Shown in pieces: positions 10,758 to 16,897 of a stretch of 31,905 bases of DNA. Source of the stretch: a virus. How positions within the stretch are numbered: position 1 is the stretch's first letter; the number at the start of each line of letters is the position of its first letter. A program made the translations under genes and the position numbers. The notes below the pieces were generated by a model, which did no database searches, was not told the origin of the DNA, and worked only from the letters and a program-made list of their open reading frames with translations. The stretch spans positions 1 through 31,905 of the IMG/VR virus record IMGVR_UViG_3300038825_000460, one strand, 5' to 3'.

Positions 10758-10958
10758 ATGGACAGAGCAGACTACCAAGATATTATTAACGAGTACAAAG
10801 AACAGGTTCGTGTTCTTAAAGCACAGATTTCAGAATTAGAAGATGCTTGTAAATCGAAAGATGCAGCACTTAAAAGATCTTTACAAAAACTTGAGTATAC
10901 AGCTCAAGACTTGGATAAAGCTAACGATGAAATCAATGCAAAAAAACAATCAGAATAA
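10758..10958 (+). CDS. Small coiled-coil protein
   Basis: 66 residues, almost entirely heptad-like (EYKEQVRVLKAQISELEDAC), highly charged and without a membrane segment. It starts three bases after the holin candidate's stop and overlaps the start of the zinc-ribbon gene by 23 bases. The role is unknown; it could oligomerise with a neighbour. Confidence 0.5.
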   Translation: MDRADYQDIINEYKEQVRVLKAQISELEDACKSKDAALKRSLQKLEYTAQDLDKANDEINAKKQSE

Positions 10959-11160
10959 AGTAGGCAACTGTAAATGGTGCAGTAAAATTATTACTACTAG
11001 CGAACCATATATGATTGTTAAAGAAGAATACTCTTGTGTAAAATGTTTTAAAAATTCAGGACATATGTTGCCTTTTTGGGGGAAAAATGAGAGACACAAA
11101 GTTGCTAGAACAACACGTGAAAAAAACAGAATACAAAGAAAAAGAAATGAGACTGTTTAA
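10936..11160 (+). CDS. Small zinc-ribbon protein (two CxxC)
   Basis: 74 residues from the ATG at 10936. An upstream in-frame ATG at 10843 would extend it across the coiled-coil gene and is less likely. Two CxxC knuckles, C12-x2-C15 and C34-x2-C37 (NCKWCSK, SCVKCFKN), predict zinc binding. The C-terminus is very basic (RTTREKNRIQRKRNE), suggesting nucleic-acid contact. It overlaps both neighbours. It is an odd gene to find in a lysis region. Confidence 0.5.
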   Translation: MQKNNQNKVGNCKWCSKIITTSEPYMIVKEEYSCVKCFKNSGHMLPFWGKNERHKVARTTREKNRIQRKRNETV

Positions 11161-12921: not shown

Positions 12922-13131
12922 CTAATTTGAACAAATACATCCAAATAAATCTCCACTCCCATCATGCATGACGTGAGCATTTAAAGAATTAGAATATGTA
13001 CTTAATTGTAATCTCAATACATCACATAAATTAAAACAATCTACTTGACTAAATATTTTTAGATTAACTGTCATTTCTTTAGTCACTTCAAGAAGATGAT
13101 ACACTCCATCATTGTATATTATTAGTTCCAT
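12922..13131 (-). CDS. Unrecognised 69-residue protein
   Basis: It starts two bases after the stop of the zinc-ribbon ORF (TAATTATG), with AAGG about 8 bases ahead. Beta-type N-terminus (MELIIYNDGVYHLLEVTKEM), then four scattered Cys and a 'HDGSGDLFGCICSN' end. No known family. The tight junction with the upstream gene supports translation. Confidence 0.5.
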   Translation of the reverse strand: MELIIYNDGVYHLLEVTKEMTVNLKIFSQVDCFNLCDVLRLQLSTYSNSLNAHVMHDGSGDLFGCICSN

Positions 13132-13255
13132 AATTAGCCTTTATTAGTTGATTTAATACTGTTGTCCAAGGGTTGTAGTCTTTTGCACACCCTGATAAAC
13201 TTGTTAATATAACAAGAAGCACAATAATAAATTTTCTTTTCAATAATGTCTGCAT
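13109..13255 (-). CDS. Small lipoprotein nested out of frame in the zinc-ribbon gene
   Basis: 48 residues. The N-terminus is basic (MQTLLKRK), then a hydrophobic stretch (FIIVLLVILTS), then a lipobox L20-S-G-C23, so signal peptidase II processing at Cys23 is predicted. The mature part is only 26 residues (CAKDYNPWTTVLNQLIKANY...). It lies in the +1 frame relative to the zinc-ribbon ORF and overlaps the start of the gene at 13131 by 23 bases. No good ribosome site is visible. Size and lipobox resemble Rz1-type outer-membrane spanins, but chance cannot be excluded. Confidence 0.4.
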   Translation of the reverse strand: MQTLLKRKFIIVLLVILTSLSGCAKDYNPWTTVLNQLIKANYGTNNIQ

Positions 13256-13283
13256 TTTTATTACACAAATTACATTTAATCAT
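13134..13283 (-). CDS. Mini zinc-ribbon protein
   Basis: 49 residues with C4-x2-C7 and C21-x2-C24 knuckles ('MIKCNLCNKN', 'YYCASCYINK') spaced 13 apart, and a basic tail. This is a well-formed zinc ribbon for its length. The gene starts right after the terminator hairpin (13289-13335) and ends two bases before the next ATG, so it heads the distal leftward unit. No strong Shine-Dalgarno is seen, so translation may be weak or leaderless. Nucleic-acid or protein binding is the usual role of such ribbons. Confidence 0.45.
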   Translation of the reverse strand: MIKCNLCNKNADIIEKKIYYCASCYINKFIRVCKRLQPLDNSIKSTNKG

Positions 13284-13288
13284 AAATT

Positions 13289-13335
13289 AAAAAGGCACTG
13301 CTAAATGGGTCTTTAACCACTCTTTAGCAATGCCT
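13289..13335 (-). terminator. Intrinsic terminator after the nuclease-SSB unit
   Basis: A 13-bp stem (13323-13335 with 13293-13305; one G-U pair, otherwise perfect) encloses a 17-base loop that can form a small inner stem. On the leftward strand it is followed by five T's (13289-13293). It sits between the SSB-like gene stop (13367) and the zinc-ribbon ORF. It should stop or reduce transcription into the distal leftward genes. TTTT follows on the other strand too, so it may be bidirectional. Confidence 0.75.
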
Positions 13336-16408: not shown

Positions 16409-16597
16409 CCTACTCCTCCTTGGGCCTTTATCTAGTATAGGTACACTTACAGAATCTTAAACTAGAAATACCATTGTAAGTTTACAAGTCCGAATAAGCA
16501 GGTTAAATTTACAAGCTACCCAGTCTCCCAGGTAGCTCTATCTATATGTGAGATAACTTGTTTTGAATAGGTACCACATACTCACTCTACAGAATTC
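16409..16597 (+). other. Convergent intergenic region with repeats
   Basis: 189 bases between the ends of rightward and leftward genes, with no credible ORF. It holds a TTGTAA-GT-TTACAA palindrome (16474-16487), a second TTTACAAG at 16508-16515, the 7-bp hairpin listed separately, and two similar stretches (ACAGAATCTTAAA near 16450 and ACAGAATTCTTAAA near 16591). No hairpin here has a T-run, so termination is not clearly explained. Confidence 0.4.
16514..16537. repeat. Perfect 7-bp hairpin, AGCTACC / GGTAGCT
   Basis: AGCTACC (16514-16520) and GGTAGCT (16531-16537) enclose a 10-base loop. It is GC-richer than its surroundings and lies between convergent genes, suggesting a transcript end or RNA stabiliser for either strand. 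There is no U-tract. Confidence 0.5.
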
Positions 16598-16897
16598 TTA
16601 AATACCTTTTGTAGTATACATATCATTTACTTTATCAGCTTCTTGCTGAGCTTCAGATCTTAATGGATCTGTGTATACTTCTTCTACTTTTAATACTGAA
16701 TTTTCAATAATACGTTTTCGTGTAGCAGCTATTTCTGCTTTAACATGATCTTTAGCGTGTTCTAATACTTCAACTAATTTAGGAAAGTTAGTTTGATAAA
16801 TTCCATAGATAGTTAAATCATTAATTGCTGTCGCTACTCTTTGTAGACCTCTTTGACGTTTTTCTAGTCTCAGAATCTCGCTGTCTGGCATTATCAT
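16598..16897 (-). CDS. Unrecognised helical protein, 99 residues
   Basis: Almost entirely charged helix (SEILRLEKRQRGLQRVATAI; VLEHAKDHVKAEIAATRKRI), with no membrane segment or Cys. GGAGATGG lies in the leader. It is the last gene of the 22.8-16.6 kb leftward operon. Coiled-coil self-association is likely. The function is unknown. Confidence 0.5.
   Translation of the reverse strand: MIMPDSEILRLEKRQRGLQRVATAINDLTIYGIYQTNFPKLVEVLEHAKDHVKAEIAATRKRIIENSVLKVEEVYTDPLRSEAQQEADKVNDMYTTKGI

Follow-up and report, generated by a model that had tools for sequence, protein, structure and literature searches.

A zinc-finger gene and a lipoprotein gene that very probably share DNA in a group of uncultured marine phages

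Two short open reading frames overlap in different frames on the minus strand of the window, by which we mean the whole 31.9-kb stretch of viral DNA analyzed here (31,905 nucleotides). The first encodes a small four-cysteine protein and the second a predicted lipoprotein, and their parts and neighbors are as follows:

13134..13283, minus strand: zinc-finger ORF, 49 aa, from ATG at 13283 to stop at 13134, MIKCNLCNKNADIIEKKIYYCASCYINKFIRVCKRLQPLDNSIKSTNKG; 90 distinct finger loci overall
13212..13274, minus strand: four-cysteine finger (C4, C7, C21, C24), with the second knuckle, YYCxxCY, within the overlap
13137..13196, minus strand: basic C-terminal tail of the zinc-finger protein, absent from free-standing fingers; dN/dS 1.2-1.5
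13109..13255, minus strand: lipoprotein ORF, 48 aa, from ATG at 13255 to stop at 13109, MQTLLKRKFIIVLLVILTSLSGCAKDYNPWTTVLNQLIKANYGTNNIQ
13190..13255, minus strand: predicted signal peptide, 22 aa, read in +1 from the second knuckle of the finger
13112..13189, minus strand: predicted mature lipopeptide, about 26 aa, with the motif C-x-KD[YF]-(Dx)-NPxTT
13134..13255, minus strand: dual-coded stretch, 122 nt, by direct reading of both ORFs
13293..13335, minus strand: terminator-like hairpin, 13 bp, then T5, just upstream of the zinc-finger ATG; RNA fold z = -3.6
12922..13131, minus strand: next ORF, 69 aa, for which no family match was found

An earlier note on this DNA had described two leftward-strand ORFs overlapping by 122 bases in different frames, and we recovered the same coordinates, with the lipoprotein ATG 28 nt inside the zinc-finger ORF in the +1 phase. 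The cysteine pattern it gave, CxxC-x13-CxxC, is read directly as C4-x2-C7-x13-C21-x2-C24, and the zinc-finger stop at 13134 does fall two bases before the next gene (ATG 13131). Its account of a basic, hydrophobic start and an L-S-G-C lipobox in the second ORF is equally accurate (K6/R7/K8, a hydrophobic core, and LSGC at 20-23), and, as it had said, there is no strong Shine-Dalgarno sequence at either start. Absent from that note is a second overlap, of 23 nt, between the 3' end of the lipoprotein ORF and the start of the next ORF.

In the 31.9-kb window, the lipoprotein ORF is the sole ATG ORF of at least 40 aa with a lipobox, and the zinc-finger ORF is the sole short ORF with a double CxxC. 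First-order Markov-random windows contained 0.3 lipobox ORFs and 0.07 double-CxxC ORFs each, and an overlapping pair arose by chance in 1 of 60 such windows. The window sequence alone is therefore suggestive rather than decisive, and it is the homologues that decide.

Relatives were gathered from IMG/VR using each product as a query, then small profiles, then two later profiles. A lipoprotein-frame match lies in the +1 frame of 54 of the 90 distinct finger loci found in these searches; two of the 54, L208 and L213, have no lipobox Cys, leaving 52 distinct dual loci. All 52 share the same +1 overlap, with starts 22-31 nt apart, all four Cys and the lipobox, and the arrangement persists to about 50% protein identity and across differing gene neighborhoods. 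The lipoprotein frame has the features expected of a lipoprotein precursor, namely a basic n-region, a hydrophobic core and a lipobox Cys at 15-35, and 50 of the 52 dual homologues satisfy a lipobox rule of the PS51257 type. In finger alignment A5 the four Cys, A11 and Y19 are invariant, as are the four Cys in alignment A7, while the first Cys pair varies in spacing (CxxC, CxxxxC or CxC). Chance pairing is rejected by these homologues, which keep both frames. The dual pair was absent from 50,697 phage records in nucleotide and tblastn searches.

Start codons are less uniform. The finger has no obvious ATG in dual loci L006, L039, L066, L238 and L196, where GTG, ATA or another codon would be required, and the lipoprotein ATG is missing in L258/L148. 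In L006 (4960-5130), the finger frame has no ATG, GTG or TTG at its start and a perfect AGGAGG lies 5 nt ahead of an ATA codon, which suggests either that ATA serves as a rare start codon here or that there is a sequencing difference.

Each gene is also found standing alone. Finger-only genes occur at 34 distinct loci, including those of two pelagiphages, HTVC010P and HTVC134P, in both of which the +1 frame is closed, and of two genomes from fosmids, S46-C10 and S42-C7; among these four, the finger is annotated in S46-C10 alone. The shared segment is 70% identical between finger-only and dual loci, a value biased by the largely motif-based scans through which the free-standing sets were found. 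In HTVC134P (L159), HTVC010P (L160) and S42-C7 (L161), the unannotated finger ORF sits at about 1990-2150 of each locus, and in the first and last of these it is flanked by a DNA methylase gene and MarR/integrase genes. Lipoproteins without a finger amount to about 45 distinct sequences and occur on many contigs. A more distant lipoprotein-only ORF, MGKYLIILILLTGCSHINDKVNPTTTLLKQIIKETNK, is present but unannotated in HTVC105P (L157, MH598804.1, about 16474-16600), between the ribonucleotide reductase alpha gene and gp27.

Selection on each frame was estimated with an OLGenie-like count over 24-25 close pairs, with no sequence reused, nonsense changes excluded, two transition weights, and the overlap split by segment. 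Where the finger overlaps the signal peptide, dN/dS was 0.36-0.52 for the zinc-finger frame (bootstrap P for a ratio of 1 or more, at most 0.002) and 0.37-0.52 for the lipoprotein frame; in the tail segment it was 1.2-1.5 and 0.45-0.58, respectively, all of these values being based on short segments and metagenomic sequences, with same-clade pairs that are not fully independent. Constraint on the third frame was not consistent. Under resampling of synonymous codons, the lipoprotein frame stayed open in 1.4% of trials and the zinc-finger frame in 3.5%. The comparison of dN/dS in both frames that the earlier note had proposed thus points to purifying selection on both frames in the finger/signal segment and, downstream, on the lipoprotein alone. 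By the same ratios, the C-terminal tail of the zinc-finger protein is a passenger without selection of its own.

These data bear on whether one of the two frames is an accident. If the zinc finger were the only gene, the lipoprotein frame would be a by-product of AT-rich codon use, and the +1 reading of the knuckle is indeed intrinsically hydrophobic even in finger-only loci. However, stops interrupt the +1 frame inside the finger in 31 of the 34 finger-only loci; just 3 of the 34 keep it open across the finger, compared with 52 of 52 dual loci, and the longest +1 open stretch is 23 aa in finger-only loci versus at least 49 aa in dual ones. The constraint on the lipoprotein frame (0.37-0.58 across both segments), the recurrence of the mature part in loci that lack the finger, with a more distant version in HTVC105P, and deletions that preserve the lipoprotein also weigh against this reading, to which we give almost no credence.

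The opposite possibility, that the lipoprotein is the only gene and the zinc-finger frame is accidentally open, draws on the more even constraint of the lipoprotein frame, on the unconstrained zinc-finger tail, and on several lineages that drop the finger and keep the lipoprotein. The finger is deleted in L004/5, L012/13 and L081-83/L070/L076, with its ATG reused for the lipoprotein frame; comparison of L081 with L156 gives a clean case, in which a fossil finger can still be made out in the alternative frame. A truncated finger, MGKNKKIKCSK and a stop, is all that is left in L023-25, where its TGA overlaps the lipoprotein start (ATGA). Yet loss also runs the other way. L302/L308 keep an intact finger after decay of the lipoprotein to MQS and two stops, and L208/L213 keep the finger with the lipobox Cys gone. 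With the 34 free-standing finger loci and the constraint on the finger within the overlap, this makes a lipoprotein-only account very improbable, and both single-gene readings are largely refuted by selection and distribution together.

Losses by deletion or decay that leave the other gene intact are the behavior expected of two separate genes. The reciprocal losses fit two independent genes, each of which some backgrounds can apparently do without; of the two, the lipoprotein is the one kept more often. Such losses of a Cys pair or lipobox among close relatives were what the earlier note had said would count against its proposal; a few lineages did lose one partner, but 52 keep both. Its view that both frames look like purposeful proteins is borne out by those 52 distinct relatives and by purifying selection in the finger/signal segment. 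On the sequence evidence, two independent phage genes very probably share this DNA, with both frames coding. In L052 (5750-6130), a lipoprotein-only derivative, a separate and different zinc-finger-like ORF lies about 250 nt upstream, as if replacing the lost finger.

We propose that one mRNA would serve both products and that the lipoprotein would be made by initiation at the internal ATG, which appears from the sequence to be the most economical route. The zinc-finger ATG is only 9 nt past the 13-bp terminator-like hairpin (13293-13335), which is visible in the nearest relatives, L001-L005 and L012-L013. With the hairpin right before the finger ATG in the window lineage, transcription has either to pass the hairpin or to initiate inside it. 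This position, the weak ribosome sites and the dual loci in which a start codon is missing weigh against dual coding. Most dual loci have an A-run ahead of the internal ATG, and it could be argued that synthesis begins at the finger's start instead and reaches the lipoprotein frame through a frameshift, or through slippage during transcription, on this run; L012/13 even carry natural in-frame fusions of the finger start and the lipoprotein. Those fusions came about by deletion, however, and the internal ATG is kept in 51 of the 52 dual loci versus 12 of the 34 finger-only loci, and we consider frameshifting or slippage improbable.

The zinc-finger product would be a small cytoplasmic four-cysteine zinc finger, probably binding nucleic acid or protein. 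An AlphaFold2 model built on a finger alignment of 22 (mean pLDDT 72) has a hairpin and a helix beginning at the second CxxC, an arrangement of knuckle, hairpin, and second knuckle at the helix start that resembles treble-clef/LIM-like and A2L-type small fingers. The best Foldseek matches were to LIM, RING, ribosomal and other small fingers (E 0.8 or worse), and the finger has sub-threshold Pfam matches to A2L_zn_ribbon and treble-clef families. No match of the finger reaches a curated cut-off; profile searches of both alignments against Pfam, PHROGs and PDB returned nothing above cut-offs. Of the zinc ribbon named in the earlier note, the two conserved Cys pairs stand, but the AlphaFold2 model suggests a treble-clef-like fold rather than a classical ribbon.

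The lipoprotein product is predicted to be a short lipid-anchored periplasmic peptide, probably anchored on the outer membrane, given that a residue other than Asp occupies position +2. In most dual loci the gene order is UvrD-type helicase, DUF3310, the pair, and DNA polymerase A; the lipoprotein-only type adjoins a weakly matched terminase small subunit gene, a putative nuclease, or an exonuclease. The finger would most likely have an early role, on host or phage nucleic-acid machinery or in host takeover. For the lipopeptide, an early envelope role, in superinfection exclusion or envelope takeover, is the most likely guess from its position and type. Superinfection exclusion taken by itself, a guess on the same grounds, is conceivable and we put it forward tentatively. 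The terminase of the window is 49% identical to that of pelagiphage HTVC106P, and a SAR11-like host for the window phage is likely from this similarity.

T5 Llp and phi80-type Cor are small phage-encoded envelope exclusion proteins made outside the lysis cassette. The lipoprotein gene described here is likewise predicted to encode a small envelope protein and lies outside the lysis cassette, although its mature part is much shorter. In a PHROG scan, 1 of 18 lipoprotein members matched PHROG 1119 'Cor' (E = 0.004), and the scan gave no convincing sequence match to these proteins.

Spanins offer precedents for lipoprotein genes that are embedded in, or overlapped with, another gene; in lambda, Rz1 is read in +1 relative to Rz (Kongari et al. 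2018, PMC6139136). As in Rz/Rz1, the present pair has a small lipoprotein gene read in +1 relative to another phage gene, and as in the overlapped architecture of two-component spanins, the lipoprotein extends beyond the end of the host frame (PMC6139136). It differs in that the host frame is a zinc finger rather than an inner-membrane i-spanin, in lying outside a lysis cassette, and in that the lipoprotein begins close to the host gene's 5' end, with its signal peptide overlapping the conserved domain.

Could the pair nonetheless be a cryptic two-component spanin, its o-spanin embedded in an atypical partner, and act at lysis to disrupt the outer membrane? Beyond the gene arrangement, the signal part weakly matches Rz-like spanins in PHROG (E = 0.03-0.2). 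However, the host frame, a four-Cys finger with a basic tail, is without a transmembrane segment or periplasmic domain, and the mature peptide is only about 26 aa. The pairs lie mostly in replication operons, the HTVC105P gene sits beside ribonucleotide reductase genes and not an endolysin, the window's endolysin-like gene is on the opposite strand, 3 kb off, and no lysis-cassette location of the pair was seen among the gene neighborhoods inspected. A unimolecular spanin fares no better, since a C-terminal transmembrane segment is absent and the 26-residue mature part has no hydrophobic stretch of membrane length. Spanin identity is thus a misfit to host frame and gene context, and we consider it unlikely. 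The comparison with Rz/Rz1 drawn in the earlier note holds for gene architecture but not for function.

Another precedent is olg1/olg2 of Pseudomonas phage Fc02, two ORFs that lie in different frames with 25 nt between their starts and one of which gives superinfection exclusion (PMC9936078). Both systems have two ORFs with closely spaced starts in different frames, but olg1 and olg2 encode unrelated proteins, one with a reported exonuclease-like domain, in a temperate phage, and are not described as a lipoprotein/zinc-finger pair (PMC9936078).

Having argued for two genes in shared DNA, we turn to how the overlap may have formed. The knuckle YYCxxCxV reads IIVxxVxL in +1. Mean hydropathy of the nine knuckle codons in +1 is 3.4 in dual and 2.2 in finger-only loci, compared with 0.04 (sd 1.1) in +1 windows of other window genes. 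We infer that the +1 knuckle is hydrophobic because Tyr and Cys codons have a pyrimidine at the third position, which makes the second codon position in +1 mostly U. Identity between dual and lipoprotein-only sequences is 0.19 in the Cys-anchored signal core (-5 to -12), against 0.14 after shuffling, whereas it is 0.69 in the lipobox and, over 18 aa, 0.53 in the mature part. Since the lipobox and mature part are shared and the signal core is not, the simplest reading, from sets that come from motif scans, is that the dual clade took a finger-derived signal and kept the old mature part.

We therefore favor, with some reserve, a model where the signal peptide of a pre-existing lipoprotein was replaced, by overprinting, with the +1 reading of a pre-existing zinc-finger gene, the arrangement then persisting in a large marine-phage clade. 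A finger gene upstream of the lipoprotein gene would have come to supply the signal peptide from its +1 frame, where the pyrimidine-ending Tyr and Cys codons and the T-ending Ile codons of the knuckle would read Ile, Val or Leu, and the tail of the finger would have been dragged over the mature lipoprotein.

The earlier note had considered a lipoprotein nested in a zinc-ribbon frame unusual, and in the literature on overlapping genes, lipoproteins, zinc ribbons and pelagiphages we found neither a description of the pair nor a report of a zinc finger as the partner of a lipoprotein gene. As far as we found, then, this conserved pair is undescribed. The uncultured marine phages that carry it make up a large group, akin to those infecting SAR11 bacteria. 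It is a well-supported dual-coding pair in which a membrane-targeting signal is written in the codons of a predicted metal-binding fold. How the overlap arose and broke down can be read directly from the free-standing genes, the natural deletions and the reciprocal losses, and codon composition gives a simple explanation of how, in AT-rich genomes, a zinc knuckle can be a ready-made +1 signal peptide. If our model is true, a whole targeting signal was gained by overprinting on an unrelated domain predisposed to it. Annotation misses short genes of this kind in abundant marine phages: the finger is unmarked in HTVC010P, HTVC134P and S42-C7, and so is the lipoprotein in HTVC105P.

Two further small ORFs deserve mention. 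On the plus strand of the window, at 10843-11160, another small ORF has two Cys pairs (CKWC ... CVKC) and partly overlaps the preceding ORF, 10758-10958. A scan of GTDB gave one finger-only match (L313, 2111-2233), whose contig, from a Maricaulis MAG, is 5,958 bases long and perhaps a phage fragment.
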